Source: a virus. Taken from it: a DNA stretch of 30,347 bases. Position 1 is the stretch's first letter. Every line of letters starts with the position of its first letter. Below, one piece after another: positions 1,386 to 30,347 of this stretch. Made by a program: the position numbers and the translations under genes. The notes beneath the pieces were generated by a model, which saw only the letters and a program-made list of their open reading frames with translations, was not told where the DNA came from and ran no database searches. The stretch covers positions 1 through 30,347 of IMG/VR virus record IMGVR_UViG_3300030406_000890. One strand, 5' to 3'.

Positions 1386-1386
1386 A

Positions 1387-2501: not shown

Positions 2502-2508
2502 CAAATAA

Positions 2509-3744: not shown

Positions 3745-3901
3745 GACTACAGCTAAAAAGAAATCACCTACACCAAAGAATAAAGCTTTGTATGCACGGG
3801 TGAAGTCTGAAGCTAAACGTAAGTTTGATGTATATCCTAGTGCCTATGCTAATGCTTGGTTGGTTAGGACATACAAGAAGCGTGGTGGTACTTACGCATG
3901 A
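3722..3901 (+). CDS. Small basic protein with conserved YPSAYAN motif
   Basis: A 59-residue protein read in a different frame from its neighbours. It opens MAVKRKRK and continues with the conserved core KALYARVKSEAKRKFDVYPS, AYANAWLVRTYKKRGGTY. I recognise this core (KxDVYPSAYANxWxVxxYKxRGG) from many marine and T4-like cyanophage genomes, where it is a small protein of unknown role. AAGAGG lies a few bases before the ATG. It overlaps the previous gene by 23 bases and the next by four (ATGA at 3898-3901). The strong motif makes the call secure despite the length. Confidence 0.85.
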   Translation: MAVKRKRKTTAKKKSPTPKNKALYARVKSEAKRKFDVYPSAYANAWLVRTYKKRGGTYA

Positions 3902-4185
3902 GCTTGAAAGAATGGTTTGGGAAAGGTCCAAAAGGAGATTGGGTGGACATTGGTGCGCCTAAAATTAAGGGCAAGTTCCAAGCCTGTGGTCGTGCGTCCA
4001 CAAAATCAAGCAAAAGAAAATATCCAAAGTGTGTGCCAAGAGCTACAGCTAAAAGAATGACTGCTGCACAAAGAAGAAGCGCAGTAGCAAGAAAACGATC
4101 AAAAGCTCAAGGTGTTGGTGGTAAACCTACTAACGTCAGAACATTTGCCAAAAAGAAAACAACTAGAAAAAGGGCTAAAGCATAA
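3898..4185 (+). CDS. Basic Cys-containing conserved phage protein
   Basis: A 95-residue basic protein. The N-terminal half has a recognisable pattern: KEWFGKGPKGDWVDIGAPK, then GKFQACGRASTK and KRKYPKCVPRATAKRMTAAQ. The remainder is Lys/Arg-rich (RRSAVARKRSKAQGVGGKPT, then FAKKKTTRKRAKA). Related WVDIxAPKxxGxxxxCGR...KYPKCVPxxKAxxM proteins are common in marine phages and have no known function. The two Cys residues are conserved in those I remember, so metal binding or a disulfide is possible. Start and stop both overlap neighbours (ATGA and TAATG). Confidence 0.8.
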   Translation: MSLKEWFGKGPKGDWVDIGAPKIKGKFQACGRASTKSSKRKYPKCVPRATAKRMTAAQRRSAVARKRSKAQGVGGKPTNVRTFAKKKTTRKRAKA

Positions 4186-4859: not shown

Positions 4860-5134
4860 TGGCTAGTAATAAAAATGCTCTAGCCATGTGCGATATATGT
4901 GGGTTTGTATATCCACACAGAGTAATGCAACTGAATAGCTATGGGATGCTGGTATGCCCAGAAGACTTTGAGGGACAGTTTGATCTGAAGAACCATCCTC
5001 AGAATAAAGTACCTGATGTAAGAGATAATCCAGCTATTCTCAATCCTCGTCCAGATGTGGGCGGTAGAAATCTTACATGGAGCGAGGCTTCAAGTGCTTG
5101 GGGATCAACAGATAAACATTGGAATCTAGTATGA
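4859..5134 (+). CDS. Small zinc-ribbon-like phage neck-region protein
   Basis: A 91-residue protein beginning with a CxxC knuckle (MCDICGFVYPHR, Cys at about residues 11 and 14) and a second half-knuckle (LVCPEDFEG). It continues NHPQNKVPDVRDNPAILNPR. I know a phage group with CDxCGFxYxxxxL...VCPxCxDxxHPQ...RPD that sits beside adaptor genes. Here the fourth Cys of that knuckle is absent: the residue after CP is Glu-Asp-Phe, so either a His or Asp completes the site or zinc binding is lost. A binding role in virion assembly is likely but unproven. It is joined to its neighbours by TAATG and ATGA overlaps. Confidence 0.75.
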   Translation: MASNKNALAMCDICGFVYPHRVMQLNSYGMLVCPEDFEGQFDLKNHPQNKVPDVRDNPAILNPRPDVGGRNLTWSEASSAWGSTDKHWNLV

Positions 5135-7659
5135 CAGACTTAACGACACAATTAATATCAAATACATATAAGAAGATAATACTTGTTAGTTCCTCTGCAA
5201 CTAACACTGGTGTTAATACTTCTCTCAAAGCTGTACAAACTGGTGATGGAGAAAATACTGCACTGAAGCTGGCAACGAATGCAGTGCAGATTACTGGTGC
5301 GCTAGGAGTAACTGGTAACGTATCTCTGGATGCAAACCTACATGTTGATGACGCAGTATGCGCCAGTGCTTTCTACGGAGATGGTTCTAATCTATCAGGC
5401 GTAACAGCTACGATTGGTGGTAACATATCTGTCAGTAATGCTACAGTAGGTGGCAACTTAAATGTTGCTGGCACTGCTACAGTGGCTGGTGCTACACATC
5501 TACAAAGCACAGTCTCAGTTGGTGGGGCTGCACACTTTGGCTCTACAGCAACAGTAGCAGGGGCAGCACAGCTTCAAGGCACAGTAACGGCTGTAGGTGC
5601 TGCTACATTTAAATCTACAGTTACAGTAGAGAATGCAGCTATACTTAAAAACAATGTGTCAGTTGGTGGTACGTTTGCAGCGGCTGGTGCAGGGACATTT
5701 ACCTCTAAAACAGATTTTAAAAATGACGTATCAGTTAGTGGTCGTTTAGATGTAGCAACATCTGTCTGTGTAGGTGGCATTGCAAAGTTTAGAGACAATG
5801 TTTCTGTTAGTGGTAATTTAAATGTAGTAGGTAATGTAACTGCTGCTCAGTTTTATGGTGATGGTTCTAATCTTACAAACGTAGAAGCTGAACTTGGTAT
5901 TACTACAAATATTTCTGTATCAGGATTTATACATGCTGGTGGTAGTGTATCTGTTAGCGGACCCTTCAATGTTGTAGGTGCAGCTACGTTCCAGAGTGGT
6001 GTATCTGTAAGTGGCAATGCTAATATCAATGGAACACTAACTGTAGCGGCTGCTACATCTCTAGCATCTACACTTACTGTTGGTAGCATTGCAACATTTA
6101 AAGATGATGTAAGTGTAAGCGGTGATACAAGACTAGGTGGTACAGTTACCGTAGGTGGTGCAGTAAGTCTTGCTTCTAGCCTAAGTGTGGGTGGTGCAGC
6201 AAACTTTCTAAGTACAGTAACAATAACTGGTAACAATGTTCAGGCAGCTAATGCAAGAGTATGTGCAAGTGCATACTATGGAGACGGATCAAACCTTACT
6301 GGTATTAGTACATCAATAGAAGGTAACATATCTGTAAATAATGTTTTAGTTGGTGGGACACTTACAGTAGTTGGTGCCGCACAGCTTGGGTCTACAGTAA
6401 CTGCTGTTGGTGCAGCTACTTTTAAAGATGCTGTATCAGTATCAGGTGGACTTACAGTTGGTGGTGCAGTAGCTGTATCAGGTGGTTCTATTGATCTGCG
6501 AACAAGTGCCTCTGATCCTGCATATATCAGATTTTATTGTGAGTCTGGTAATGCTCACTATGCTCAACTACAATCACCGCCTCACTCTTCTTATAGTGGC
6601 AACCTAACTATTACACTACCAGTTAGCACAGCAACAATAGTTGGTACATCTACTACTGATACTCTTACCAATAAAACTTTTGGTGATGCAGTTAAGTTTG
6701 AGTCTACAGTAACTGTCAGTGGTGCGGTTAGCATTGGCGGTGCAGTAAGCATTGGTGGTGCTACAAATTTAGCAAGCACGGTTACTGTGGTGGGTGCTGG
6801 TACGTTTAAAGATGATGTATCTGTATCAGGCAATGTAAATATAGGTGGCACAGTAACTATAGGTGGTGCTGTATCACTAGCCTCTACATTGTCAGTCGGA
6901 GGTGCAGCACACTTTGGTTCAACAGTGACAGTGGCTGGTGCAGCAATCTTTGAAGATGCAGTATCTGTTTCTGGCACAGTAGATATAGCTGGTAACACTT
7001 CTATTGGTGGTACACTAATAACGACAGGTAAGGCAGAGTTTGAGGATGACGTATCTGTCTCTGGTAATACTAACTTAGGCGGTACAGTTACTGTTGGAGG
7101 TGCAGCATCACTAGCTTCTACACTTAGCGTTGGAGGAGCAGCTAACTTTGCAAGCACTGTAACAATAGCTGGTGCAGTAAGCCTAAACTCTACACTTAGT
7201 GTTGGTGGAGCAACCAATCTTCTTAGCACAGTAACGGCTGCTGGTAATGCTGGCTTCCTTGGCACTGTGCGAGTATCTGGTAATACTTCACTAGAGGGGC
7301 AGCTACAGCTAACTGAGTCAGCGGCTGCTGCTGTGCATACTACAGCTATTAATGGTGTAACATCTGTATCTCTTAACTTTGGTATAGCGCAGAATTTCTT
7401 TACCTCTGTTACTGCTGCACATACACTAGCACGACCTACAAATGCAAGGGTAGGACAGGTTGGTAGTATTTTATTAATGCAAGATGGTGGTTCTGGAACT
7501 ATGTCCTACAATGCATGTTTTAATTTTATTGGAGGCACAGCCCCAACATTATCAACGGATGATAATGCAATGGATAGATTAGATTATATAGTTGTATCTG
7601 TTTCTTCTGATAATACTGCTGAAAATATTCAAGCAGTAATGACACAAGCTTATAGTTAG
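5131..7659 (+). CDS. Repeat-rich tail fibre / adhesin with 12-residue beta repeats
   Basis: An 842-residue protein from the ATG at 5131, which overlaps the previous stop as ATGA; a TTG four codons earlier is less likely. Residues 1-70 form a lead-in domain. Residues 100-725 are dominated by a 12-residue periodic unit such as STLSVGGAANFA or STVTVAGAAIFE, with Val/Ala/Phe/Leu at fixed positions and Gly at the turns. This fits a beta-helix or triple-stranded fibrous shaft. Three punctuation blocks with YGDGSNL (bases 5350, 5850 and 6270) interrupt the shaft. One non-repeat insertion at about residues 455-520 (DPAYIRFYCESGNAHYAQLQ) may be a side domain. The last 110 residues (HTLARPTNARVGQVGSILLM, IVVSVSSDNTAENIQAVMTQ) look like a globular tip. 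Role inferred: host recognition or virion decoration. Confidence 0.85.
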   Translation: MTDLTTQLISNTYKKIILVSSSATNTGVNTSLKAVQTGDGENTALKLATNAVQITGALGVTGNVSLDANLHVDDAVCASAFYGDGSNLSGVTATIGGNISVSNATVGGNLNVAGTATVAGATHLQSTVSVGGAAHFGSTATVAGAAQLQGTVTAVGAATFKSTVTVENAAILKNNVSVGGTFAAAGAGTFTSKTDFKNDVSVSGRLDVATSVCVGGIAKFRDNVSVSGNLNVVGNVTAAQFYGDGSNLTNVEAELGITTNISVSGFIHAGGSVSVSGPFNVVGAATFQSGVSVSGNANINGTLTVAAATSLASTLTVGSIATFKDDVSVSGDTRLGGTVTVGGAVSLASSLSVGGAANFLSTVTITGNNVQAANARVCASAYYGDGSNLTGISTSIEGNISVNNVLVGGTLTVVGAAQLGSTVTAVGAATFKDAVSVSGGLTVGGAVAVSGGSIDLRTSASDPAYIRFYCESGNAHYAQLQSPPHSSYSGNLTITLPVSTATIVGTSTTDTLTNKTFGDAVKFESTVTVSGAVSIGGAVSIGGATNLASTVTVVGAGTFKDDVSVSGNVNIGGTVTIGGAVSLASTLSVGGAAHFGSTVTVAGAAIFEDAVSVSGTVDIAGNTSIGGTLITTGKAEFEDDVSVSGNTNLGGTVTVGGAASLASTLSVGGAANFASTVTIAGAVSLNSTLSVGGATNLLSTVTAAGNAGFLGTVRVSGNTSLEGQLQLTESAAAAVHTTAINGVTSVSLNFGIAQNFFTSVTAAHTLARPTNARVGQVGSILLMQDGGSGTMSYNACFNFIGGTAPTLSTDDNAMDRLDYIVVSVSSDNTAENIQAVMTQAYS
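5440..7300 (+). repeat. Degenerate 36-bp repeat coding a 12-residue beta motif
   Basis: Within the fibre gene the motifs TVTVxGAAxF, TLSVGGAAxF and DVSVSGNxNx recur every 12 codons in long runs, broken by YGDGSNL blocks. Longer units of several repeats also recur: a block reading DDVSVSGN then TVTVGGA then SLASTLSVGG appears near 6100, 6810 and 7050. The DNA copies diverge mainly at third positions, so the array is old and kept for protein structure. Its low complexity also produces long stop-free frames on the opposite strand. Confidence 0.85.
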
Positions 7660-7670
7660 GATAAAGAGTA

Positions 7671-10600
7671 GTGGTATTTAGTAATAACTTATTGGCAGGT
7701 TCTGGAGGTCAATCTACAGGGTATGAGATTGATCAGTCCATTCGTTTTAATGCAGATGATTCTGCTTATTTAACTCGTTATCCTAGTGTTGAAGGAAATA
7801 GAAGAACATTTACTTTATCAACGTGGGTAAAATTTAATGAGTTAAGGTCGGACAATATTGTTTTTGCATCTTGGATACCTAGTGGTGCAAGTTCATATGC
7901 TCTATTGTACATGCATAGTGATTTTCGTGTACGGTTTGAAGATCAAGGTACTAGCAAAATTAAACCATCCATGCTTTTTGTAGATACAGCAGCTTGGTAT
8001 CATATCGTTTTAAGGGTTGATACTACAGATAGTGTAGCTAATGACCGCTATCAAATGTACGTTAATGGTGAACGGCAAACAGATTTACATGAAAATGACC
8101 AGCCGTCACAAAATCACCAAACAAATGTAAATAAAACACAGCCTCATTACCTTGGTCGTAATGGCTATAGTTTAGCAATGATCTATAGTGATTTATATCA
8201 AGCAGAAACACATTTTCTTGATGGGGTAGCATATGATGCAAGTTTCTTTGGTGAAACTGATAGTGCTACAGGGCAATGGATTCCAAAGAAATATACGGGA
8301 GGTAATTACGGAACTAACGGCTTTTACATTACTGGTGAGGATTCAACCTTTTTAGGACAAGATGTTCGCACATCTGGTGATCAAGTTAATTCATTTCAAG
8401 CAAGTCAATGGACCGGAGCTACAGGATCATATACATTTACTGATGGTCGTATACAAGCAGATACTGATAATAAAGCAATTAAAAGTGTAGATACTTTTAC
8501 TGGAGACTTTGAGTTTAGTTGGCGATATATTGATATGGCTAACTTTGTTATTGGATTCTATGAGATTGATGAAGATAGTACGTTTAGTGACAGTTCGTCT
8601 GCCGGTAATATGCAGAACATGACAGATAGTTGGTATGTGCAAACATCTTCTGTTGCGGCTAATAGAGATATTTATTATGGCGGAACAGTTGTTGTAAATG
8701 CAACAACAATAGCCAATGGCGATACTTGGAAGCTACAGCGATCTAGTGGAACTATTAAAGTATATCGTAACGGTTCGGCTGTTCATACATTTTCACAAAC
8801 TAGTACAAATGAAGTTAGACTTGTAGTAGCGCAAGGAGATGCATCAGCAGATGTAGGTGAGGTAAACTGGGTAGACAATGCAACTTTAGGTAATAACCTT
8901 TTTTCTTCAGGTTTATCAACAGCAGATCAAATGTTGGATACGCCAACTAATAATTTTTGTGTTTTATCTCAAGTTGATAAGTTTGGCGGTGGCTTAACTT
9001 TATCAGATGGAAATCTTAGGGCCGTTCCCGCTGCTAGTGCATATAGTAATAACCACGGCACTTTTTATATAGATTCGGGTAAGTGGGTTTTTGAATGTAA
9101 ACACACTAGTATTTTTGGTGAGGCTTGTGGTTGGTCACCATCAGGAGAAAGACTTTCTGGTTCGTCTGATCGTGGTTATTTTATGTTTCAAGATGGCCGT
9201 GCTTATGATAATACAACTAATACAGGTACAAAAGGTGCATCGCTAGCTGCTGGTGATTTTCGTTACGTTTTCTACGATGCTGATGCACAAGCTATGTGGT
9301 TTGCTCATGTAGACGTGTCTAGCTCTAATGCTCTCGTTTATGACAACAGTGCTACTAAAGCAGAGATTGAAGCAGGAACAACTACGAATGCTGTGTTTAC
9401 TAGTATCCCAGCAGGATTTTGGGCACCCGGAATCTGGATGGACACTAGTGGTGTTATTGAAGTTAATTTTGGTCAATCAGCTTTTGCTACGACAAGTGAT
9501 TTACCTTCAGGCTTTAAAACTTTATCTGCTGCTAACTTACCAGACCCAACCGTTCCCCTACCTGAAAAATATTTTAACGCAGTTCTTTATGAAGGTAATG
9601 GTGCTGGACAACGTGTTGGTCAGTTTCAACCCCTTACTGAATTATACTCAGTAAGTAATAGTGTTATCTTTAATGATGATGACTCTTCTTACTTAGAAAA
9701 AACTTATAGTGGTTCTGAAAGCACACTAACAGCTTGGTCTTTTAGTATTTGGGTTAAAAGATCAAAACTAGGTGCAGAACAATTTATTTTTTTAGCTGGA
9801 ACTTCATCAGCAAATCTTGAATATCTTAGATTTACTAGCAGTGATGAAATAGAATATAAACTACTTTTATCAAGCAGTCTTGACGCAAACTATATTACAG
9901 ATAGAAAGTTTCTTGATTCTTCGTCATGGATACATATTTATGCTTATCGTTCTTCAACTACTTTTAAGTTATATATTAATGGAGTAGAATTAACTAACTT
10001 TAGCACATCAAACGCTCCCGGTTCTTCAAACGGTGTGCTTGGTTCAAATATTAGACATCGTATAGCGTGTGATTATGCTAGTGTTGCTACTTTGTTTGAT
10101 GGTTATCTAGCAGAAATAAACTTTGTTCCCGGCACTGCAAAAGCAGTTTCTGATTTTGGTCAACTAGATGCATCAACAAATAAATGGATTCCTAAAGAAT
10201 ATACAGATTCTTATGGCACAAATGGTTTTCACCTTGATATGGCAGTTGCTCCCGGCACTGGTAATGGTGCAGGTAATGATGTTAGTGGTAATAATAATGA
10301 TTTTACTGAAAATAATCTTGTAGCAGCAGATCAAGTAACTGATAGCCCTACAAATAATTTTTGCACTTTGGAACCTCTTCAATCTGCTTGGGGTGGAGCG
10401 GTTACTTTGTCAAACGGAAATCTTGCTGTAGCTGGAACAGCGGCGACTGTATGGAATAACGCTGTTGCCACCTTCAAGGTTCCGTCCACCGGTAAGTGGA
10501 TATGGGCAGCAAAACCAAGCACCTCCGGCGGTGGTCAGTGTGATCCGTGGATTGTAAATGAGACGGGATTAACTTCTAGAAATAACTACGTTTATGTTGA

Positions 10601-11960
10601 TACAAATGGGTGGGAAGCATCTTTTGATAGCAGTTCCGCACACTTAGTTTTGAACAATAATGCTGGAACCTCTGCAAGTCATACTTATGGCTCTGGGGAT
10701 TTTCACGTAATTTGTTTTGATGCTGATTCAAAAAAATTATGGTTTGGCGTCTATGATGTTTCCGCAACCACACTAAAGTTTCGTGACGGTTCTACGGGTT
10801 TTACTGGTGACCCTGCTGCTGGCACTAATCAAACATTCACTCTAAGAGGCAGTGAGTTTACGATTGGATTTGCATCTTACACTGGGCGTAGCGGCGACGT
10901 TGATTTTGGGCAGTCTGATTTATTGTCTCAGTTTACTGCGCCATCAGGTTTTAATCAACTTAATAGTGACAACCTCCCACTAAGCAACGGTGAACTATCT
11001 GCATTTGTCTGGATCAAGAACCGTGACGCCGACGATAACCACATGCTCTTTGATGCAGTGCGTGGAGTAAAAAAAGACCTGCATTCAAATGTAAATGATG
11101 CTGAAGTTACCAATGCAAATACGCTAACTCGCTTTCTGAAAAATGGTTTTGAAGTTAGCAATGATGCATTGGTAAACACCAATAATGAAAGCTATGTTGC
11201 ATGGCAATGGCTTAATGATAGCCTCACAACAAGCAGCAATGAGAATGGCAGTATAACCAGTACAGTGTTAGCTGAAACTACAAGCGGCTTTAGTGTTGGC
11301 ACCTACACCGGAAACGGCACAGACAATGCAACTGTTGGTCATGGTCTTGGTGGTGCTGATATGGTATGGGTTAAACGACGCAACACCACTGGTAACTGGA
11401 GAGTTTATGAAAAGTCATCTAATAAACTTTTGTATCTTGATTTAACAAATGCTGGTGTTTCTCCAACAGAGATAAAATCAACTTCGTCAACCACCTTTAC
11501 TTTAGGTAGCGGAAATGGATTTAATGGCAGTGGAGATACTCATGTTTTCTATGCTTTTCAATCTATTGATGGTTTTAGCAGGATTGACATCTATGAAGGT
11601 AATGGTTCTAGTGATGGTCCTTTTGTTTACACTGGTTTTAAACCAAGATGGATAATATTTAAAAGATATGATGCTTCTGATGGGTGGAGTATACTTGATA
11701 CGGCTAGAGGTTCTGGTAATTTTGGTTCTGCTGCTGGCGCAACTGGTAAAGATCCAACGGCTGGTAATGAAATGAATAATAAAATTAACGCAAATGACCA
11801 GTTTGCCGAAGAAGATAATTCTGGTGGTAGTCGTAAATGCTCGTTCTTGTCGAATGGGTTTAAGATAAAAAATACAAATACAGCAATGAATGCCAGCGGT
11901 GGTGATTATATATACATGGCGTTTGCTGAATCACCGTTCAAAACAGCGACGGCACGATAG
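7671..11960 (+). CDS. Giant lectin-like fibre with duplicated modules and DUF7483-like C-terminus
   Basis: A 1429-residue protein from a GTG at 7671, preceded by AGGATAAAGAG. Module A has a LamG/concanavalin-like domain at about 20-215 (SIRFNADDSAYL, TLSTWVKFNELRS, YQMYVNGERQTDL). An inserted beta domain at about 254-402 (FEFSWRYIDMANFVIGFYEI) and a SPRY-like domain at about 415-630 (DTPTNNFCVL, GKWVFECKH, FRYVFYDADAQAMWF, VNFGQSAF) follow. Module B, at about 660-1095, repeats this order without the insertion (VIFNDDDSSYL, FSIWVKRSKLGA, DSPTNNFCTL, FHVICFDADSKKLWFG, VDFGQSDL). The C-terminus has two DUF7483-like units (AFVWIKNRDADDNHMLFDAV at about 1108; GFKPRWIIFKRYDASDGWSI at about 1321). 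These domains bind glycans or form sandwiches in other phage fibres, so a cell-surface-binding role is likely. Confidence 0.85.
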   Translation: MVFSNNLLAGSGGQSTGYEIDQSIRFNADDSAYLTRYPSVEGNRRTFTLSTWVKFNELRSDNIVFASWIPSGASSYALLYMHSDFRVRFEDQGTSKIKPSMLFVDTAAWYHIVLRVDTTDSVANDRYQMYVNGERQTDLHENDQPSQNHQTNVNKTQPHYLGRNGYSLAMIYSDLYQAETHFLDGVAYDASFFGETDSATGQWIPKKYTGGNYGTNGFYITGEDSTFLGQDVRTSGDQVNSFQASQWTGATGSYTFTDGRIQADTDNKAIKSVDTFTGDFEFSWRYIDMANFVIGFYEIDEDSTFSDSSSAGNMQNMTDSWYVQTSSVAANRDIYYGGTVVVNATTIANGDTWKLQRSSGTIKVYRNGSAVHTFSQTSTNEVRLVVAQGDASADVGEVNWVDNATLGNNLFSSGLSTADQMLDTPTNNFCVLSQVDKFGGGLTLSDGNLRAVPAASAYSNNHGTFYIDSGKWVFECKHTSIFGEACGWSPSGERLSGSSDRGYFMFQDGRAYDNTTNTGTKGASLAAGDFRYVFYDADAQAMWFAHVDVSSSNALVYDNSATKAEIEAGTTTNAVFTSIPAGFWAPGIWMDTSGVIEVNFGQSAFATTSDLPSGFKTLSAANLPDPTVPLPEKYFNAVLYEGNGAGQRVGQFQPLTELYSVSNSVIFNDDDSSYLEKTYSGSESTLTAWSFSIWVKRSKLGAEQFIFLAGTSSANLEYLRFTSSDEIEYKLLLSSSLDANYITDRKFLDSSSWIHIYAYRSSTTFKLYINGVELTNFSTSNAPGSSNGVLGSNIRHRIACDYASVATLFDGYLAEINFVPGTAKAVSDFGQLDASTNKWIPKEYTDSYGTNGFHLDMAVAPGTGNGAGNDVSGNNNDFTENNLVAADQVTDSPTNNFCTLEPLQSAWGGAVTLSNGNLAVAGTAATVWNNAVATFKVPSTGKWIWAAKPSTSGGGQCDPWIVNETGLTSRNNYVYVDTNGWEASFDSSSAHLVLNNNAGTSASHTYGSGDFHVICFDADSKKLWFGVYDVSATTLKFRDGSTGFTGDPAAGTNQTFTLRGSEFTIGFASYTGRSGDVDFGQSDLLSQFTAPSGFNQLNSDNLPLSNGELSAFVWIKNRDADDNHMLFDAVRGVKKDLHSNVNDAEVTNANTLTRFLKNGFEVSNDALVNTNNESYVAWQWLNDSLTTSSNENGSITSTVLAETTSGFSVGTYTGNGTDNATVGHGLGGADMVWVKRRNTTGNWRVYEKSSNKLLYLDLTNAGVSPTEIKSTSSTTFTLGSGNGFNGSGDTHVFYAFQSIDGFSRIDIYEGNGSSDGPFVYTGFKPRWIIFKRYDASDGWSILDTARGSGNFGSAAGATGKDPTAGNEMNNKINANDQFAEEDNSGGSRKCSFLSNGFKIKNTNTAMNASGGDYIYMAFAESPFKTATAR

Positions 11961-12709: not shown

Positions 12710-14118
12710 TGGCAAGCACATATACAACAAACATACGCTTGACAAAGCAAGGGGATGGAGAGAACCCAAACAGTTGGGGGCAAATCCTTAACGATGGAGT
12801 TATCAGTCTCGTTGATGATGCTATTGCTGGATACACCACTGTATCTTTGGGCAGTGCTGCAACTGTTACCCTAACTGAGAATCAAGGATCTGGCGATCAG
12901 TCTCGTTCTGCCATACTAGAGTTTAAAGGAACCGTTGGTGGAGCGCATGATACAATTAATGTTCTGATACCCAATAACTCTAAAACTTATATTGTAAAGA
13001 ACTCTGTCTCTTATAATGATAGCTCTGATGCTATTGTTATAAAGGTTGCTGGTAATACAGGGACAACAGTTACAGATGGCTCTACTGCTTTGTACGTGAC
13101 TAACGGAACAACTGTCACACCTGTTACTCAAAATACATTTACTAATCTTACAGCTACAAGCATTACCACTGGAGGTATTACTACAACAAGCTTAACAGGT
13201 GTTAGCCTTGCAACATCCATACTAGCAGCAACTAGTATTACTGGCACAGCAATAACACTGACAGGTAATGTGACTGCTGCAAATGCTGTGATAAGTGATA
13301 AGGTATGTGCATCTGCTTTCTTTGGAAGTGGTGCTAATCTAACAGGTGTTGCTAGTGGTATGCCCAGAGGATATCTGTCTGGTCTTACTCTATCTAACAA
13401 TACTAGTGATAGTGAGCATGATATTGATATTGCAGTTGGTGAAGCAAGAGACACTGCTGATGGTGTTGATTTAACTATCTCTTCTACATTTACTAAAAAG
13501 ATTGATGCTACTTGGGCATCTGGTAGCGGTAATGGTGGTTTGGCAAGTGGTGTAAGTTTGTCAGCAGATACTTGGTATCATGTTTATCTTGTTGAGCTAG
13601 ATGCTGGCGGTACTGATGCTGGTTTTGATACAGCAACTAATGCAGCTAACCTTGTAGCAACATCTGGAGTTGCTTCTGCTTACAGACGTATTGGTTCTGT
13701 TCTTACAGATAGCAGTAGCAACATTCTTGGGTTTACTCAGTTTGAAGATGAATTTATTTTTGATTCTCAGGTTGTAAATGTAAATGGTGTTGGTCTTGGA
13801 ACTAGTCGTGTATTGCAGACAGTTACTACACCAACTGGTTTTGAGGTAAGAGCTATACTTGGTTTGCTTGGTATAATTGCAGGGAGTAATAATGCAGTTC
13901 GTATTACTCTTACACATCCTAATGTAACAGATGCTACTCCTGCTAGTAATATTGTAAATAATGCTGGTGAGAATAGTTCTAATAATAATGGTACGTGGGC
14001 CTCTGGCACACATATAGTTAGAACTGATACAGCAAGCAGGGTAGCATTTAGACAAGACGTTAATAGTACAGTATATATAAATACTAATGGTTATCTTGAT
14101 CCAAGAGGTAGAGGATAA
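12709..14118 (+). CDS. Second tail fibre / virion surface protein
   Basis: A 469-residue protein. The N-terminus (TTNIRLTKQGDGENPNSWGQ, ILNDGVISLVDDAIAGYTTV) is a conserved attachment domain that I remember from many marine phage fibre genes. A beta domain follows to about residue 135, then a short Thr/Ile/Ser repeat shaft (LTATSITTGGITTTSLTGVS, about residues 145-195). A DKVCASAFFGSGANLTGV punctuation block at about residue 195 matches those in the fibre at 5131. The C-terminal 250 residues form a globular domain (WYHVYLVELDAGG, YRRIGSVLTDSSSNILGFTQ, RVAFRQDVNSTVYINTNGYL). That C-terminus resembles generic phage receptor-binding tips. It probably attaches to the hub encoded next. Confidence 0.8.
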   Translation: MASTYTTNIRLTKQGDGENPNSWGQILNDGVISLVDDAIAGYTTVSLGSAATVTLTENQGSGDQSRSAILEFKGTVGGAHDTINVLIPNNSKTYIVKNSVSYNDSSDAIVIKVAGNTGTTVTDGSTALYVTNGTTVTPVTQNTFTNLTATSITTGGITTTSLTGVSLATSILAATSITGTAITLTGNVTAANAVISDKVCASAFFGSGANLTGVASGMPRGYLSGLTLSNNTSDSEHDIDIAVGEARDTADGVDLTISSTFTKKIDATWASGSGNGGLASGVSLSADTWYHVYLVELDAGGTDAGFDTATNAANLVATSGVASAYRRIGSVLTDSSSNILGFTQFEDEFIFDSQVVNVNGVGLGTSRVLQTVTTPTGFEVRAILGLLGIIAGSNNAVRITLTHPNVTDATPASNIVNNAGENSSNNNGTWASGTHIVRTDTASRVAFRQDVNSTVYINTNGYLDPRGRG

Positions 14119-14127
14119 TAAACTACT

Positions 14128-15969
14128 ATGGCAACTAGACTAGCAAAGTTTGAATTTCAACAGGGCTTTCATAGAGAGACTACGGCCTATGCTGAAGGTC
14201 AGCGTTGGTTTGACGGCAACTATGTACGGTTTCGTTCTGGTCGTCCTGAGAACATACGTGGCTATGAGACAAGAGCTTTGGGCGCAACCTTTGATGGTTC
14301 TGCCAGAGACTTGATCGTGTACTCTGATTCAAACAGTAAGAAGAGAGCAGTCTTTGGTACGCCTGAAAAGTTGTATGCACATGAGGGTGATCAGCTATTT
14401 GACATCACACCAATAACAACGGCAGTAACACTGTCCAATGTATTTGGTACATCATCAGGCAGCACCAGAGTTTGTTGTTCTGACAATGGTCATGGCAGAG
14501 TAGTAGGTGACTATGTGTTATTTACATCTGCTGCAACATTCAATAATGTTAGTCTGCAGGGTAATACGTATAAGATTGTCTCTGTAGATAGTGCAAATGT
14601 GTTTACTATCTCTGTTACTGATGCTGCTAATGCTACAGGCAGTGATGTAGGATCAGCAACATTTAAATATTACATACCTACAGGTAACTCCGTAGCTGTT
14701 GCTGGTCTTGGTTATGGTGCAGCAAAGTATCAGGCTACAGTGTGTGCATCACAGACAAGAGCTTGGAACCAACCTGCATCTGCTGGGTCATCTGGTATTG
14801 TATTTAACGTAACACAGTGGAGCCTTGACAACTGGGGTGAAGATGTTGTAGCTAACCGTAGTGGCAGTAATATATTTTACTTTGACAGTGATGCCTCAGT
14901 GTCACCAACAAGGGCTACATCTGTTACAACTTCACCAGTAAGCTCTAACTCTATTATTGTGTCACCTAATGACAGGCATCTTATTTGTCTTGGTACGAAT
15001 GAGTTTTCACCTACAGCTACAGTAAGTGGTACATTTAATCCTATGCTGGTGAGGTGGTCAGATCAAGATGATAGAACTAACTGGGTGCCATCAGTAAGCT
15101 CTACTGCTGGTGAGGTTGTCCTAACAGATGGTACGAAAATTATTGGTGCAGTTCGTTCTAAAAATGCCATCAACATCTGGACAGATAATGCATTGTGGTT
15201 GATGGAGTTTGCAGGACCACCGTTTACATTTAGATTTACACAGGCTGGTACTAACTGTGGCATGGTAGGACAACATGCTGGTATTGACTTTGGTGGTGTT
15301 ACTTATTGGATGGGCTTTGATAACTTTCACAAGTTTAGTGGTCAGGTAGAAGATATAAATTGTACAGTGCGTAGATTTATCTTTGATGATATTAATAGAG
15401 ACTATTACACTAAAGTCTTTGCGGGATTGAACTCAGAGTTTAATGAGATTATTTGGTTATATCCATCAGGAACTAATACTGAGTGTAATAAGTATGTAAT
15501 ATATAATCCAATAGATGACTATTGGGTATATGGTGAAATGATCTTTACAACTTTTGCAGATAAGGAAGTTTTTGGAAACACAATTACAACAGGCGTTACT
15601 GCTGCTGGTAATAATATCTATAACAATGAACCTGTATCTGTCTTCACGGGCAGTGGGGAAACGCTACCGTCTTTTGTTGAGTCTGGTGATTTTGACATTG
15701 ATGATGGTAATGCTATCATGTTCATGAATAGAATTATTCCTGACTATGATCTATCTGGTGGTAAGATTAAGATGAAGTTCACCACCAAGAAATATCCTGA
15801 AAGCACAGAGACAGTGACAAAAGAGTTTGACATTACAAATACAACAGAGAAAGTAAACTTTAGAAGTAGAGGAAGGCAAGCAAAGGTACGGGTATCTTGT
15901 GGCTCTAACAATACAAGCTGGCGTTGGGGAGCGATCAGACTTGGTATACAAGGTGATGGAGCAAGATAA
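14128..15969 (+). CDS. P22 gp10-like tail hub / packaged-DNA stabilization protein
   Basis: A 613-residue, beta-rich protein with the features of the gp10 family (Phage_stabilise). There is an N-terminal GQRWFDGNYVRFRSGRPENI segment at about residues 24-43. Repeated blade-like beta strands follow, with Trp/Asp pairs (MLVRWSDQDDRTNWVPSV at about 307; AINIWTDNALWLMEFAGPPF at about 348; GGVTYWMGFDNFHKFSG at about 390; EIIWLYPSG; YNPIDDYWVYGE). The C-terminus ends RSRGRQAKVRVSC then WRWGAIRLGIQGDGAR, a signature I recall from marine relatives. In P22 this protein forms the six-fold hub that closes the portal after packaging and carries the tailspikes and needle. Together with the adaptor at 4185 it argues for a podovirus-type tail. 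Confidence 0.8.
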   Translation: MATRLAKFEFQQGFHRETTAYAEGQRWFDGNYVRFRSGRPENIRGYETRALGATFDGSARDLIVYSDSNSKKRAVFGTPEKLYAHEGDQLFDITPITTAVTLSNVFGTSSGSTRVCCSDNGHGRVVGDYVLFTSAATFNNVSLQGNTYKIVSVDSANVFTISVTDAANATGSDVGSATFKYYIPTGNSVAVAGLGYGAAKYQATVCASQTRAWNQPASAGSSGIVFNVTQWSLDNWGEDVVANRSGSNIFYFDSDASVSPTRATSVTTSPVSSNSIIVSPNDRHLICLGTNEFSPTATVSGTFNPMLVRWSDQDDRTNWVPSVSSTAGEVVLTDGTKIIGAVRSKNAINIWTDNALWLMEFAGPPFTFRFTQAGTNCGMVGQHAGIDFGGVTYWMGFDNFHKFSGQVEDINCTVRRFIFDDINRDYYTKVFAGLNSEFNEIIWLYPSGTNTECNKYVIYNPIDDYWVYGEMIFTTFADKEVFGNTITTGVTAAGNNIYNNEPVSVFTGSGETLPSFVESGDFDIDDGNAIMFMNRIIPDYDLSGGKIKMKFTTKKYPESTETVTKEFDITNTTEKVNFRSRGRQAKVRVSCGSNNTSWRWGAIRLGIQGDGAR

Positions 15970-24635: not shown

Positions 24636-24968
24636 TTAAGCCAAAATATGCTGACCTTTTGTCTTTCCATCAACAAGTATCCAATCATTAGTTTTTTCAT
24701 TAAAAGTTAGTATCTTTACTCCTAATTTTACTTGAAGCTCTCTTAACTTTGGAATGCGTATACGTTTTTGGTCATCACATAGATGAGTAGTTTTAACATC
24801 TATTTTTAATATTTCATTTGTTTCTTTATTTAAAGCTATTATATCAACGGGGCCACAGGCACAATCATTACGAAAAACTTCATATCCCTGTTTAAGAAGC
24901 CAACATACAGCTTGAAGCTCTAGTAAATCTCCAACTTTAGTTGCATCAAGTTTTACATTATTTTCCAT
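24636..24968 (-). CDS. PD-(D/E)XK nuclease, small
   Basis: A 110-residue protein with the pattern of stand-alone PD-(D/E)XK endonucleases (PDDEXK_5-like). GDLLELQAVCWLLKQGYEVF gives the first acidic residue (Glu17). ACGPVDIIALN gives Asp42. ILKIDVKTTH gives the Asp57-x-Lys59 pair. The C-terminal part (RIRIPKLRELQVKLGVKILT) fits the closing alpha/beta portion. In phages such nucleases serve in recombination, Holliday junction cleavage or genome trimming. Here it is the last gene after the small terminase subunit, so a packaging-related role is possible. Two bases separate it from the terminase gene. No minus-strand T-rich terminator is obvious after it. Confidence 0.8.
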   Translation of the reverse strand: MENNVKLDATKVGDLLELQAVCWLLKQGYEVFRNDCACGPVDIIALNKETNEILKIDVKTTHLCDDQKRIRIPKLRELQVKLGVKILTFNEKTNDWILVDGKTKGQHILA

Positions 24969-24970
24969 AT

Positions 24971-25462
24971 TTACTCTACCAGTATGGATTTTCTCTCTTC
25001 ACCGCCCTCAAACGGTTCTTCTGCATCGTCGCTATCATTTTCTTCAAATAGTGCATCAGCGAAGTCACACTTAGATAAAAGCTGTACAACTTTCTCTTCT
25101 CCCAATACATTGAGGCAACCTATGATAGCTGTCTCCAATGTTTCTTTATCCATAGATAAACCAGTATCACTATTTGCACCACGAATACGAGATAGTAACT
25201 CCAATGCTTTAATCGCACTGTTGGTGTGTCCATTTGCTTTGGCAAACTCATACTGGTTTTCTATTTCCTCTATTACATTAACATCAGTCTCAAGCTGCTG
25301 CTCTAGTTCATGTACTCTATCAATTACTTCTTGACTTTGAAGTAGGCGATAGCCCTGATTATAAGCTGATGCAGCAGCATATCCAGCAGCCTTTGCAGCC
25401 TCAGTTGCATTGCGGTGCAGCACGTAAGCCTGTGCAAACTTTTCTTGCTTTTCGTTTAGCAT
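24971..25462 (-). CDS. terS: Terminase small subunit
   Basis: A 163-residue protein whose N-terminus carries the Terminase_2 helix-turn-helix signature: LNEKQEKFAQAYVLHRNATE then AAKAAGYAAASAYNQGYRLL at residues 2-42. After it come long helices (QEVIDRVHELEQQLETDVNV; YEFAKANGHTNSAIKALELL), as expected for the oligomerisation core, and an acidic tail (EENDSDDAEEPFEGGEE). It recognises the packaging site and regulates the large subunit, which is not in this window. Its position on the opposite strand from the structural genes, next to a holin, is unusual. It overlaps the holin stop as TAATG. Confidence 0.85.
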   Translation of the reverse strand: MLNEKQEKFAQAYVLHRNATEAAKAAGYAAASAYNQGYRLLQSQEVIDRVHELEQQLETDVNVIEEIENQYEFAKANGHTNSAIKALELLSRIRGANSDTGLSMDKETLETAIIGCLNVLGEEKVVQLLSKCDFADALFEENDSDDAEEPFEGGEERKSILVE

Positions 25463-25869
25463 TACTTCTTCATGTTATTTCTGGCTACACCTTTCCACTT
25501 CTCAAATGAACGGGCTGCGCCAAGACCAAGGAGGGCCATGATTAAACTAACAAGCTCACCTGTTTCCAGTGATGGTAGTGTTACCTGTGGATACCACGTT
25601 ATAATAATCCAAGAAGATATAGGTGCTAATATAAACTGCCATGCCAAAGCAAAGCAACATACCCACATAATAGCTGGCCTTGCTCCACTAACAAAGATAG
25701 AGGGGTGTTTTGCCTGTTCTATATTTGCCTGTGCCTGTGCAAGATCAAGAGACATCATCTGTTGTTTTAGTTCTGCATTAAGCCTAGTCTTTAAATCTTT
25801 ATCTTCAACGAACTTATCAAGAACTTTACCAGCCACACCAATGACTGAATCTGCAATACCTAATACCAT
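25462..25869 (-). CDS. Holin of the GTA 3-TM type
   Basis: A 135-residue protein. An amphipathic N-terminal half (VIGVAGKVLDKFVEDKDLKT, then LAQAQANIEQAKHPSIFVSG) precedes the diagnostic ARPAIMWVCCFALAWQFILA segment and two more hydrophobic stretches (SSWIIITWYP; LVSLIMALLGLGAARS). It ends FEKWKGVARNNMKK. This order (Lys/Gln-rich helix, 'SxFVxGxRPAIxWVC', 'LLGLGxxRxxEKxKG') is that of GTA_holin_3TM. It would release the M15 endolysin. It is in a different operon from the endolysin, so the two are probably coordinated by timing rather than co-transcription. It overlaps both neighbours by one base. Confidence 0.9.
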   Translation of the reverse strand: MVLGIADSVIGVAGKVLDKFVEDKDLKTRLNAELKQQMMSLDLAQAQANIEQAKHPSIFVSGARPAIMWVCCFALAWQFILAPISSWIIITWYPQVTLPSLETGELVSLIMALLGLGAARSFEKWKGVARNNMKK

Positions 25870-26561
25870 TAGTCTTTCTCCTCTGCCTTGTTCTTCATCT
25901 TAATGATGCGAGGGTACTGATCAATACGATACCCCAGTGTTTCAAATGTTTTAGTATCTTGGTCTGTCATTGTATCAGCAAATACATAGATAGTCAAGTG
26001 TTTATAGTCTCTGCTTTTGTGGGCAAACAGTTGTAGCCAATCATCAGGATCAAATACAGATATGTGTGCATTACGTCCATCAGGTAAAGTTTTCATAGCC
26101 TTAAAACAGGCAACATTTATAAATACCATCTTTCGTGCATAGCCAAATATTTCATCTACAACCCATGATAAATCATCTTTAGCTATATGTTCAAGAACAT
26201 CTGTACAAACTACAGCATCCCTCTTCTGCCCCGGTCTTGTGCTATACTTCTCATAGGCTGGATCATACAAAGCAAACTCTTCTAGCCCCCAGTATTCAGG
26301 AAGAGGACAATCAATCTCATTGGTGATTGTCTTGTAGTCCTCTCCATATAGAACACCTTTACCACAACCATAGTCTATCACAGACTTACAATTATTAGCT
26401 TCTAAATATGCTTTGATAAGATCAACAAACTTTAGAAGACTGCGGCCATTAAACATACCCTCTCCTTGAGCATGTTTCTCTTCATACATTTTAATTAGAT
26501 TACCAAAATCATCAGAGGGATTAAGTCTACTGTTGCCGTTGTCTATATCAATATTAGTCAT
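25869..26561 (-). CDS. SAM-dependent class I methyltransferase
   Basis: A 230-residue enzyme from the ATG at 26561. The frame is open further upstream, but that part lies inside the previous gene and is Arg/Trp-rich, so I reject it. Motif I is VIDYGCGKGVLY at residues 61-72. An acidic second motif follows at about 99 (LYDPAYEKYS). RDAVVCTDVLEHIAKDDLSW at 114-133 is a typical motif II/post-I region. DPDDWLQLFAHK lies near 171. The remainder gives a C-terminal beta hairpin. The DVLEHI motif is common in small-molecule or sugar methyltransferases. Its start overlaps the preceding sugar-related gene by eight bases (ATGACTAA). It probably acts on a glycan or sugar nucleotide; the substrate is unknown. 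Confidence 0.85.
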   Translation of the reverse strand: MTNIDIDNGNSRLNPSDDFGNLIKMYEEKHAQGEGMFNGRSLLKFVDLIKAYLEANNCKSVIDYGCGKGVLYGEDYKTITNEIDCPLPEYWGLEEFALYDPAYEKYSTRPGQKRDAVVCTDVLEHIAKDDLSWVVDEIFGYARKMVFINVACFKAMKTLPDGRNAHISVFDPDDWLQLFAHKSRDYKHLTIYVFADTMTDQDTKTFETLGYRIDQYPRIIKMKNKAEEKD

Positions 26562-28908
26562 CGTAATATCCTTTAAATTGTGGACGCCTCTCTTGCGATA
26601 CTTTGATGTCCCACAGGTCAGCAACCATAGTATCTTTACCATGATAAGATAGCACACCCTCCAGACCGGGATCATTAAATACTTTCTCACAGTCCTGCGC
26701 CATAGCAAGTAACTCACCTGTAGTCCAGTATGTGTTTTCTTTTACATTGACCTGTATATACTTTGGCTTGGGAACCTCTCCACCCTCAGTATCACCAGTG
26801 GTCTCTGTCTTCTCCTCATCAGTAGGCTCATCTCTGCAACAATCAAAACCAAATAGATGTATATCTCTGAAGCCCATTGTGTGCAGCATACCAATGCCAC
26901 GCATAGCAGCGCATGTGCCACCAGTAATAAGCGTAGCTCCCTGTGGTATGCCAAGCTCCTGACTTAGTTTAACCTGCTGGTTCTCAATAGCTTTGCCTTG
27001 TTCATCCTCCTCACGTAGTGAATCAGTGAAAGCGTGCCAGCCCCATATAGTTGCATCACGTTCTATCAGATGTTCTGTAACAGAGGGGTCTGTCATAGAT
27101 GCAACAAAGAACTTCATGTTAGGATCAAAGTCTTTGAACAAGTCTTTGCGTGTAATATTGTGTGTGCTTTTACCTGTGATAGGTCTGGGATCAAGAACAA
27201 TACAACCCCAAGGAGTGATACCATTCTTAACAAGCCCCGGCAGTGCATGTTTAACCGTAAGTATTTTTGTTTTGGGATTTTCAAATAGAAACTGTTTTAA
27301 ATATTCATAGTCAAGATAAGGACCAGCAGATATGATAGCTGCCTTGTCTTTGTGTGCTGGGTGTTTCTGAACCCACCTGTCTTTACCAATGTGGTTTAGA
27401 TTTGTTTTGATGTTGTTGCGTATGTACTCTTTTGGCACTGAGTCTCTGGGATGCACAACTATAGGAACCTGCTTTAGTTCAGCAGGAATATCAGGCAGCT
27501 TCTCGTCGTGAATAAATACAACAAGATGTGTGCGACCACCATCTAACACTTTGTCATCAGAGGGTAGCACATGTTTACGTACCACAGCTTTCTCATCAAA
27601 AGATGTCCAGCCATCCTCTGTTGTTTTCTCCTCGTTGACTTTCTTTGTGGCAATAGAATCAAAAAGATTTTTCATACCCTGATATTTGTCATCAGGTGTT
27701 TTGTCATCGTCGTCTTTGGTAAAGAAGTGATCACCCATAACAACAGGAACAGTCTTGAGAATATCGTACTCATGCTTTACAGTTTCAATACTGTTGCCGC
27801 TACCCATCAATGCAAAGTCTACCTCCTCCATAAAGATAGGACGTAGAGTATCTCTGACGTTACCTTTGTATAACTCATAAGTAAACTGTTTGCCTTTCTC
27901 TTTGCTCATGTGTTCAGCAAACTCGTCAAACCTTTTCTCCACTGCTTTCCTAGTATTGTGAGGTTTGGCGTTGAACTCTTCTTTGTCTGTCTCTACTGTT
28001 GCATCTTCAAATAAATCATAACCAATGTAGTGAACTGTATCCGTTCTATCAAAGGCAGCAAGAGCCATCTCTATAGCACGGCCACCATTCCATGTTCCTG
28101 TTTCCAGAATGGTACTTGGTTTGTAGAAACGAATAGTATCTGCAAGCTGCTTGTATCTACCGGGAAGAATGTCAGGCGTAGTCTCTGTATCAGATAAATC
28201 AATAACTCTCTTGCCTGAACTGTCTCTGATATTCACAGAGTTTTTGTCGTTGATATTAACAATCAAGTTCTCCATGCCAACAAACTCATGAACAGTCATG
28301 CCATGTGCAGTGTAGATCGTAACAAGTCTGCTAAGAATAAATGCAGCAGTCCACTCACGGTAGTTGGTAAACTCACCTGACATGTAGGAGCCACGCCAAT
28401 CACCCATAATATCTACAGCAGTCTGACGAGATAAATTAAATGCCATAAGGTAGGATGTTTCTGGCGTATATATAAAGTCTACAGAATACTTAGGGTCAGG
28501 AAAATAATAATCTAGTGTGGATGATCTGATGTCCTTTACAGTAGCGCACATAGGATCAAGCCACAAAAGCCAACAACCCTGATTGTTGAAGCCACACTCT
28601 GTAATAGCAAAGACTTCTGGTCCTGATGACAGTGCATCAAGCAGTTCTGTATACTGCACCACACCATCTTCAGTGCCATCGTGATCTTGGTTTTCTTCTA
28701 CAAAAGTATTGTACTCTTCAATATCTTCTAGATTGTGGTAGTGAATGTTCTTGGCTTCAGGCAGAGAGTAGTTACTGATATCAAGATTATAATAATAACA
28801 GTGAAACTCTATGTTGGGTTGCCAGTTATCTTTGAACTCATTGAGGAGTTTGAAGCCATTCTTTTTTAGCTTCTTCTCATCAAAGCATGTTACAATTTTA
28901 TATGTCAT
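26554..28908 (-). CDS. Three-domain protein: GT-like, methyltransferase-like, DUF115-like
   Basis: A 784-residue protein from the ATG at 28908; earlier starts lie inside the upstream gene. Residues 1-215 look like a GT-A glycosyltransferase (TYKIVTCFDEKKLKKNGFKL; GCWLLWLDPMCATV at 111-124), but the usual DxD is reduced to D-P-M. Residues 250-460 resemble Methyltransf_24: TILETGTWNGGRAIEMAL at 266-283 as motif I, VHYIGYDLFED at 292-302, then VDFALMGSGNSIETVKHEYD and VVMGDHFF. Residues 521-700 match DUF115 / MptE-like proteins (KAAIISAGPYLDYEYLKQF; GATLITGGTCAAMRGIGM; DIHLFGFDCC), a family tied to surface-glycan and flagellin glycosylation loci. The substrate is unknown. A glycan-modifying multienzyme is the best inference. 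Confidence 0.75.
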   Translation of the reverse strand: MTYKIVTCFDEKKLKKNGFKLLNEFKDNWQPNIEFHCYYYNLDISNYSLPEAKNIHYHNLEDIEEYNTFVEENQDHDGTEDGVVQYTELLDALSSGPEVFAITECGFNNQGCWLLWLDPMCATVKDIRSSTLDYYFPDPKYSVDFIYTPETSYLMAFNLSRQTAVDIMGDWRGSYMSGEFTNYREWTAAFILSRLVTIYTAHGMTVHEFVGMENLIVNINDKNSVNIRDSSGKRVIDLSDTETTPDILPGRYKQLADTIRFYKPSTILETGTWNGGRAIEMALAAFDRTDTVHYIGYDLFEDATVETDKEEFNAKPHNTRKAVEKRFDEFAEHMSKEKGKQFTYELYKGNVRDTLRPIFMEEVDFALMGSGNSIETVKHEYDILKTVPVVMGDHFFTKDDDDKTPDDKYQGMKNLFDSIATKKVNEEKTTEDGWTSFDEKAVVRKHVLPSDDKVLDGGRTHLVVFIHDEKLPDIPAELKQVPIVVHPRDSVPKEYIRNNIKTNLNHIGKDRWVQKHPAHKDKAAIISAGPYLDYEYLKQFLFENPKTKILTVKHALPGLVKNGITPWGCIVLDPRPITGKSTHNITRKDLFKDFDPNMKFFVASMTDPSVTEHLIERDATIWGWHAFTDSLREEDEQGKAIENQQVKLSQELGIPQGATLITGGTCAAMRGIGMLHTMGFRDIHLFGFDCCRDEPTDEEKTETTGDTEGGEVPKPKYIQVNVKENTYWTTGELLAMAQDCEKVFNDPGLEGVLSYHGKDTMVADLWDIKVSQERRPQFKGYYDD

Positions 28909-29668
28909 ATGGTTTAATAATTCCTTTTCCGGCAAGGTAGGTGTAGTCTCCATTCCACTCAGCGGCATATCTTCCATCAATCTCTCTGGAACATTTCCAC
29001 TCTTTGAACCACGGTCCTCCTGTAGTAAAGTGTACATTCTTTGCTTCTATCTCCTCTGGTGAGTGACCATCTAGCCAGTTCCATTCTTGGTGTATAGTTC
29101 CTATGTCGCCTTCTTTATCAGGCAACCACTCAAAGCCATGCAGCCAAGATCCCGGTTGTGTATTAACATCAATAGGATTTAGTCTCTTGTTAAGTTCATG
29201 ACCACAGTTCCAAAGAATAAGGCTTGACCAGTTCTTACGGCGGTAGGACTCTTGCTTACGGCCATCCATCTTAAACTCTTCAGTTGGTTCATACTTGTGT
29301 TTAACACAGTATAGTGGATAGTAATCTATATTGTATTCGTCAAATAAATCGTTAATGTCAGTGCGAAGATACATGTCGCAGTCCATGTACAATGCCCAAC
29401 CCTGATACATGTTTAATGCAGGGACAAGAAAACGTGTGAAGCTAAAGTCAGTAGAGAACGGCTTACCATCTATGTCATCAATCATCTGCCCATCTTTGAC
29501 AGTATGCTTACGATTATATAAACCCATACGTTCTACAATATCTTTTCGTATTGGCTTGATGTCTACATTATCAACAGAGATACGTTCTATAGTAAACTTC
29601 AATACCTCATAAGCTACATCCTCTCTTGGATCATAGCCAATGTAAACTGTGTTGGGTGACTTTCTCAT
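28898..29668 (-). CDS. GT8-like glycosyltransferase
   Basis: A 256-residue protein. It starts with a nucleotide-binding strand (TVYIGYDPREDVAYEVLKFT) and has PFSTDFSFTRFLVPALNMYQ at 70-89. The DxD motif follows in GWALYMDCDMYLRTDINDLF (Asp96, Asp98). Further on come VKHKYEP, KNWSSLILWNCGHELN, PGSWLHGFEWLPD, GTIHQEWNWLDG and HFTTGGPWFKEW. These fit GT8-like retaining glycosyltransferases of the GT-A fold and relatives I remember from marine viruses. AGGAG at 29674-29678, overlapping the upstream stop, gives the ribosome site. It overlaps the next gene by 11 bases, so both should be made together. Confidence 0.85.
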   Translation of the reverse strand: MRKSPNTVYIGYDPREDVAYEVLKFTIERISVDNVDIKPIRKDIVERMGLYNRKHTVKDGQMIDDIDGKPFSTDFSFTRFLVPALNMYQGWALYMDCDMYLRTDINDLFDEYNIDYYPLYCVKHKYEPTEEFKMDGRKQESYRRKNWSSLILWNCGHELNKRLNPIDVNTQPGSWLHGFEWLPDKEGDIGTIHQEWNWLDGHSPEEIEAKNVHFTTGGPWFKEWKCSREIDGRYAAEWNGDYTYLAGKGIIKPYDI

Positions 29669-29962: not shown

Positions 29963-30347
29963 TTACAGGCTGTAAACTTTTTCTTTTTTCTCTTCAGGTA
30001 TTACCTTTTGAAGATTGATGGTAAGCATCCCATCACTGAAAGAAGCATCATTTACAACCACGTCTTCGGCAAGAATGAAAGATTTTGAGAAGGGTCGTCT
30101 CGCTATGCCTTTATGTACGATCTTCTTATCGTCTTCCTCTTTAAGTTTCTTGCCGCTAATGGTTAGCTTGTCGGACTCTGTTTTAACTTCCAACTCTTCT
30201 TTGTTGAATCCAGCAGTGGCTAACTCAATAGTGTACTTCCCATCTCCATCTTTGATTAAGTTGTGCGGCGGATAAGAACCTGCACTTGGGTATGGAACAT
30301 TGTCAACTATGCGAACCATTTCATTAAATAGTTTATCATGACCAATC
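29963..30347 (-). CDS. hsp20: Hsp20 small heat-shock protein (partial)
   Basis: An IbpA-type small chaperone. The frame stays open to the window edge, and upstream codons read IGHDKLFNEMVRIVDN, which fits the (G)FDRLFxx start of IbpA-like proteins. The ATG at 30319 is therefore internal and the gene begins outside the window. The alpha-crystallin domain runs from SYPPHNLIKDGDGKYTIELA through GFNKEELEVKTESDKLTISG, the KGIARRPFSKSFILAEDVVV segment and DASFSDGMLTINLQKVIPEE, ending KKEKVYSL. It keeps unfolded proteins soluble. Hsp20 is a frequent virion-region gene in marine phages, probably aiding assembly. Confidence 0.93.
   Translation of the reverse strand, partial: IGHDKLFNEMVRIVDNVPYPSAGSYPPHNLIKDGDGKYTIELATAGFNKEELEVKTESDKLTISGKKLKEEDDKKIVHKGIARRPFSKSFILAEDVVVNDASFSDGMLTINLQKVIPEEKKEKVYSL

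Follow-up and report, generated by a model that had tools for sequence, protein, structure and literature searches.

The locus analysed here raises the question of what a phage does with three overlapping genes predicted to encode enzymes that transfer sugars and methyl groups, one of them a fusion of three domains. The window, i.e. the whole stretch of DNA under analysis, is a viral contig of 30,347 bases and has the appearance of a fragment. On the minus strand, Hsp20 is followed by genes for a small membrane protein, the GT8-like protein, the three-domain fusion, the methyltransferase, the holin and the small terminase subunit (Table 1). That all three cassette genes lie on this strand was not stated in the initial annotation; the structural genes of the window are on the plus strand. 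The overlaps of 8-11 bases described there were confirmed, since the GT8-like gene and the fusion gene share 11 bases and the fusion and methyltransferase genes share 8. A purine-rich, AAAGGA-type stretch resembling a ribosome-binding site is found ahead of each chosen start. Longer reading frames (starts at 29037 and 26717) exist, and the starts adopted were those with the AAAGGA-type site, with the fusion beginning at MTYK.

Table 1. Coordinates of the cassette genes, the domains of the fusion and the neighbouring genes in the window
Feature	Position	Strand	Evidence and remarks
Hsp20 small heat-shock protein	29963..30319	-	PF00011, E 4.5e-18; upstream neighbour kept in most relatives
GT8-like glycosyltransferase, 256 aa	28898..29668	-	phrog_28018, E 2e-50
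Three-domain fusion, 784 aa	26554..28908	-	single ORF; AlphaFold pLDDT 85
Fusion domain 1, residues 1-235, GT-A fold	28204..28908	-	Foldseek and hhalign
Fusion domain 2, residues 236-470, COMT-like class I O-methyltransferase fold	27499..28203	-	VIA-align
Fusion domain 3, residues 486-767, DUF115/MptE-like, Maf_flag10, sialyltransferase-like	26608..27453	-	PF01973 and VIA-align
Class I SAM methyltransferase, 230 aa	25869..26561	-	PF13489, above cut-off
Holin, GTA_holin_3TM	25462..25869	-	PF11351, E 1.6e-14; start overlaps methyltransferase end by 1 base
Small terminase subunit, after holin	24971..25462	-	PF03592, E 2.8e-14

The window phage, a podovirus, has Pelagibacter phage HTVC023P and Roseobacter phage CRP-902 as distant relatives (approximately 31-32 % in one structural protein), and on the strength of this kinship its host is likely to be an alphaproteobacterium. 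A run of small, strongly Lys/Arg-rich proteins is encoded at 630-4185 (plus strand), to the capsid side of the tail genes; one of them ends with KSFCARSAGQMKKFPKAARNPNSRLRQARRRWRC and another of which is built of RRMGGGKTTKYKSKGG repeats; a similar run is present in a 56-kb relative, and these proteins are possibly DNA-condensing or packed in the virion.

The protein encoded by the first cassette gene scored 14.9 bits with PF01501 (E 0.02), below the gathering score of 24.3, so it is called GT8-like only; its homologue gp188 of phage Mosig passes the same profile with 30.9 bits. The DxD motif (D96-C-D98) and a C-terminal H213-FTT-GGPW motif were recognised, and both Asp residues as well as H..GGPW are invariant in all 152 distinct members of the GT8-like group. 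A Pfam line for a staphylococcal toxin domain on this protein (E 0.024) was dismissed as a chance match. The separate methyltransferase passed Methyltransf_23 (PF13489) with 29 bits against a cut-off of 27, and its DYGxGK and DVxEH motifs are invariant (93/93).

The fusion was modelled with AlphaFold using an alignment of 77 diverse relatives, which gave a mean pLDDT of 85, as against 39 with 18 close relatives. Neither Pfam nor PHROGs holds a family for its N-terminal part, and PHROGs has none for the fusion as such. The GT-A fold was assigned to domain 1 on the basis of the model and of a profile alignment with a phage protein that has DxD: Foldseek matched the domain to alpha-1,3-galactosyltransferase (E 4e-5), GlyE, LARGE1 and glycogenin (E 4e-5 to 3e-4), hhalign aligned it to the family of Mosig gp189 (probability 99.3, E 5e-20), and its profile found gp189 by hmmsearch (E 3e-6, in a small set). 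Domain 2 resembles COMT and bacterial O-methyltransferases in VIA-align (Z 15-16, rmsd about 3 Å); Methyltransf_24 matched the window copy weakly (E 0.017) and relatives at E values down to 4e-4. Domain 3 scored 54.8 bits for PF01973 (MptE-like, formerly DUF115; cut-off 34.6) over residues 498-692, a match found in 24 of 31 relatives, the other rows being mostly incomplete sequences. It also aligned with 8sd5, the HPPK (MptE) of M. jannaschii, over 197 residues (Z 15.1, rmsd 3.3 Å). A role of DUF115 as a pterin kinase of a folate pathway was rejected, since no pterin gene is present and the context is one of glycan enzymes. Profiles and folds together bear out the initial annotation, which had described glycosyltransferase-like, methyltransferase-like and DUF115 units in a phage cassette. 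The profile searches that it proposed for each domain gave a divided answer: PF01973 and Methyltransf_23 passed, PF01501 stayed under its cut-off, Methyltransf_24 was weak and domain 1 was covered by no Pfam or PHROG family.

The best PDB match of the fusion was the flagellin glycosyltransferase Maf, 5mu5 of Magnetospirillum, which spanned domains 2 and 3 (Z 18.2 over 326 residues, model residues 261-767) and whose rmsd of 11.6 Å probably reflects a different placement of domains. Maf surfaced by structure only: PDB sequence searches with the fusion and two of its domains returned chance-level matches such as asparaginase, and the VIA-align list was dominated by methyltransferase-domain matches, so that absence of a family from it does not exclude that family. 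Both proteins have a Rossmann/methyltransferase-like domain followed by a PF01973 domain (Maf_flag10). In Maf, methyltransferase motifs are weakly recognisable in the N-terminal Rossmann domain, which was called degenerate, and the PF01973 domain resembles a sialyltransferase; the enzymes glycosylate Ser/Thr of flagellin (PMC11339370). The fusion differs by the additional N-terminal GT-A domain, the domain placement and an identity of only 11 %. It gave no Maf-specific N-terminal Pfam match at E ≤ 1, and its model ends soon after the PF01973 domain. No flagellin or flagellar genes were recognised in the window or in the examined genes of the 56-kb relative, and for lack of a flagellar link the fusion was not filed as Maf.

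The motifs of the three domains tell different stories. In domain 1 of the window copy D118-P-M120 stands where DxD is expected, and the second Asp motif is gone from this lineage too. The DxD was kept in 24 of the 77 relatives, all of which also kept the second Asp, and of the 53 without DxD 38 had lost it (Fisher p 6e-10, with related sequences counted as independent). On a tree built without domain 1 the distribution of DxD needs two to three changes, most simply explained as repeated loss from an active ancestor. Nevertheless, among close relatives that all lack DxD the dN/dS of domain 1 was 0.03-0.08, within a range of 0.01-0.14 for the fusion that signifies strong purifying selection. 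Since dN/dS is low despite the missing DxD, domain 1 would be kept for a role other than ordinary metal-dependent sugar transfer, which suggests that in the window lineage it is catalytically dead yet needed. In domain 2 the SAM motif E269-x-G-x-W-N-x-G (ETGTWNGG) and the acidic D298 are invariant (77/77). In place of the DGDH-type motif, which is replaced in all 77, there is a G(S/G)GNS-type stretch with G369, G371 and S373 equally invariant, equated by its motif position with the acidic metal-binding motif after strand 4. The invariant D393 could be a leftover metal ligand. Without the conserved acidic motif the methyltransferase activity of domain 2 is uncertain. The DUF115 core of domain 3 (SxG, LDPR, ITGGTCAAMR, LFG) is almost invariant among the 77 relatives.

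These observations bear on the number of working enzymes. The two glycosyltransferase units and the DUF115 unit counted in the initial annotation are all present, but not all of them appear to work; because the metal motif of domain 1 is gone in this lineage, it is more plausible that sugars are transferred by two domains only, GT8 and DUF115. It could further be argued that domains 1 and 2 are both dead and that the fusion serves mainly as a scaffold, with only DUF115, GT8 and the separate methyltransferase acting, an explanation compatible with any target. The coupled loss of DxD and second Asp, the replacement of the DGDH-type motif under a dN/dS below 0.14 in both domains and the degenerate state ascribed to the corresponding Maf domain speak for it; the SAM motif and D298, needless in a dead domain, and the DxD kept by a part of the relatives speak against it. 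We regard a mainly scaffolding fusion as a real possibility, though not the likelier one.

The fusion was found in viral contigs in tiers of 79-100 %, approximately 50-70 % and approximately 45-50 % identity. No unfused version turned up in the fetched loci, which contained 144 distinct full-length fusions, every fetched relative long enough to judge having the whole fusion, and a search of the viral contig collection for the PF01973 domain hit at least 529 places. The order (Hsp20)-GT8-fusion-methyltransferase-(holin)-small terminase was seen wherever the contig was long enough; the cassette is thus a core element of a large uncultivated group of marine phages. Chance overlaps of open reading frames were ruled out by the conserved order and the low dN/dS. 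Just upstream of Hsp20 and the cassette most relatives have a gene for the large subunit of ribonucleotide reductase (561 aa; 12990-14675 in one of them). The only match to the fusion in genome_contigs was PAKP01000072.1, filed as a contig of a Sneathiella MAG and identical with IMG/VR 2788500214_000001. Since it carries phage terminase, holin and ribonucleotide reductase genes and is the same as an IMG/VR record, it is phage DNA and not a host gene, present in the MAG through misbinning or infection.

A tblastn search of 50,697 deposited phages found no match to the whole fusion at E ≤ 1e-5 or to its single domains at E ≤ 1. On the other hand, whenever a phage record contains homologues of both the GT8 and the separate methyltransferase, the two lie side by side (not more than 285 bases apart in the 12 records measured). 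Clusters of this kind are CcrColossus gp126-gp131, gp200-gp204 of Stenotrophomonas phage DLP6 and gp188-gp191 of Pelagibacter phage Mosig, whose GT8 proteins are homologous to that of the cassette (34-39 % identity). As in the cassette, they include methyltransferases that are homologous or of the same type and DUF115/sialyltransferase-like or GT-A neighbours; unlike it, they consist of separate genes, contain extra enzymes and lack the three-domain fusion. Mosig gp189, with DAD and HD motifs, adjoins the GT8 homologue gp188, and gp190 and gp191 are FkbM methyltransferases. In or beside the respective clusters, CcrColossus gp126 is PF01973-like (E 1.5e-7, slightly under the cut-off), DLP6 gp202 is similar to GT29 sialyltransferases and virus S20 has a DUF115 or sialyltransferase-like gene (weak match). 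In MW202512 and S20 such clusters are placed between capsid and tail genes. The fusion therefore unites what these phages keep as separate adjoining genes, and since no match to it was found in the 50,697 phages, among which its modules occur as neighbours, the GT-A/methyltransferase/DUF115 fusion as a core gene is new and the glycan-modifying set of modules is of a kind already known. In Synechococcus phage S-SCSM2R the GT8 homologue lies near phage-encoded KdsA and KdsB, hinting at CMP-Kdo as a possible donor in such clusters.

The fused form had been thought undescribed. No description of it was found in the literature searched, but a protein with the same whole architecture by predicted structure (811 columns, E 2.6e-53, 25 % identity) is present in public databases: A0A6J7X5Q0 (UniProt, 714 aa) of an uncultured Caudovirales phage, titled 'Methyltransferase domain containing protein' and with no function described. 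Similar fusions are also known. PBCV-1 A064R is a GT-GT-methyltransferase fusion which, with the separate methyltransferase A061L, makes a methylated glycan that decorates the capsid (PMC9614988). Like the cassette, this pair combines a viral three-domain transferase fusion (units of about 200 aa, GT-A and methyltransferase) with a second, separate methyltransferase, and by this analogy it is the closest functional precedent. A064R has no DUF115, acts on the N-glycan of an algal virus with another capsid type and is compared here with the fusion by architecture. Among phages, capsids and tails of mycobacteriophages are glycosylated according to Freeman et al. 2023, as cited in PMC11256854 and PMC12619734, the capsid and tail proteins of Che8-type phages being decorated by phage-encoded glycosyltransferases (via PMC11256854); hosts differ, and the likeness drawn here is one of function.

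What was observed is the gene order, the fusion, the predicted folds, the conservation or loss of motifs and the co-occurrence of the modules elsewhere; from these we infer reactions, substrates, order of steps and target. The cassette may encode a soluble, probably late-expressed pathway by which a short methylated glycan is attached to a macromolecule, most likely a virion protein rich in Ser/Thr, a proposal to which we give a nearly even chance. The DUF115 domain, Maf/sialyltransferase-like, would transfer a CMP-type sugar of the nonulosonate or Kdo class from the host, presumably making the first link to the protein as Maf does on flagellin. The GT8-like enzyme would then attach a hexose taken from a UDP-sugar, and the sugar would be O-methylated by the separate methyltransferase and perhaps also by COMT-like domain 2. 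Domain 1, which retains its DxD in sister lineages, would serve in the window lineage as a non-catalytic platform for binding or holding. No nucleotide-sugar genes were found among the examined genes of the 56-kb relative, nor was a gene for CMP-sugar synthesis seen in the phage; with no sugar-nucleotide synthesis apparent, host sugars would be used. A tail fibre, adhesin or capsid protein of the phage is a candidate target. A virion protein was preferred because in MW202512 and S20 modules of this type are flanked by capsid genes on one side and tail genes on the other, the cassette is core and not variable, and the fibre-like protein (5119-7659) is Ser/Thr-rich (25 % Ser+Thr). More specifically, the phage might possess a Maf-like protein O-glycosylation system of its own, in which the priming enzyme is joined to a methyltransferase and a catalytically retired glycosyltransferase and which gives virions a coat of methylated glycan of the nonulosonate or Kdo type; this idea is rather doubtful.

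The position of the cassette, on the strand opposite the structural operon and beside lysis and packaging genes, argues against a virion target. The main rival, anticipated in the initial annotation alongside the fibres, is the surface of the infected host. Here the cassette would alter LPS or flagellin glycans, the Maf-like DUF115 acting on flagellin and GT8 on the LPS core, and so prevent superinfection or keep new virions from adsorbing to debris. Enzymes of family GT8 often take part in building the LPS core. Flagellin is the substrate of bacterial Maf enzymes (PMC11339370), and the GT8 genes of pelagimyophages were interpreted as modifiers of host LPS (PMC7029224). Surface-conversion genes are usually variable, however, and the cassette is fixed in all relatives that are long enough; neither a membrane-bound flippase nor a lipid-carrier enzyme adjoins it, the unfused modules adjoin virion genes in other phages, and the neighbouring lysis and packaging genes are late ones, late for exclusion. 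We consider modification of the host surface unlikely, though it deserves to be kept in mind. A membrane-anchored O-antigen conversion cassette was rejected, as no membrane segments were found in the GT8-like, fusion and methyltransferase proteins.

Phage DNA was the third target suggested at the outset, the cassette then glycosylating and methylating modified bases. To our knowledge, the DUF115 enzymes characterised so far have proteins or small molecules as their substrates. A non-exhaustive search of the examined genes of the 56-kb relative revealed no hydroxymethylase, base transglycosylase or comparable base-modifying enzyme, and its ThyX, DNA polymerase I type, primase-helicase and ribonucleotide reductase appear ordinary. 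Although glycosylation of DNA by phage enzymes is well known from T-even phages, as cited in PMC9614988 and PMC12619734, the lack of a base-modifying gene among those examined and the presence of the modules among virion and glycan genes elsewhere make DNA decoration very improbable.

Glycosylation of a phage's own particles is known in only a few cases, and the literature searched yielded none that involves a DUF115/Maf-type enzyme. Should the cassette indeed decorate virions, particles coated with glycan would be widespread in the ocean. The coexistence of one lineage whose GT-A domain is seemingly dead with others in which it is intact also offers a natural test of transferase domains turning into scaffolds.

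Two further features of the window were noted. A gene for a UPF0102/PDDEXK-like nuclease is located at 24636-24968 on the minus strand, at a spot that is occupied in some relatives and empty in others. On the plus strand, 7671-11960 encodes an adhesin-like protein of 1429 aa with a concanavalin A-like (Laminin_G_3) domain and DUF7483, which is just 44 % identical in a relative whose nearby tail genes are mostly 66-90 % identical.
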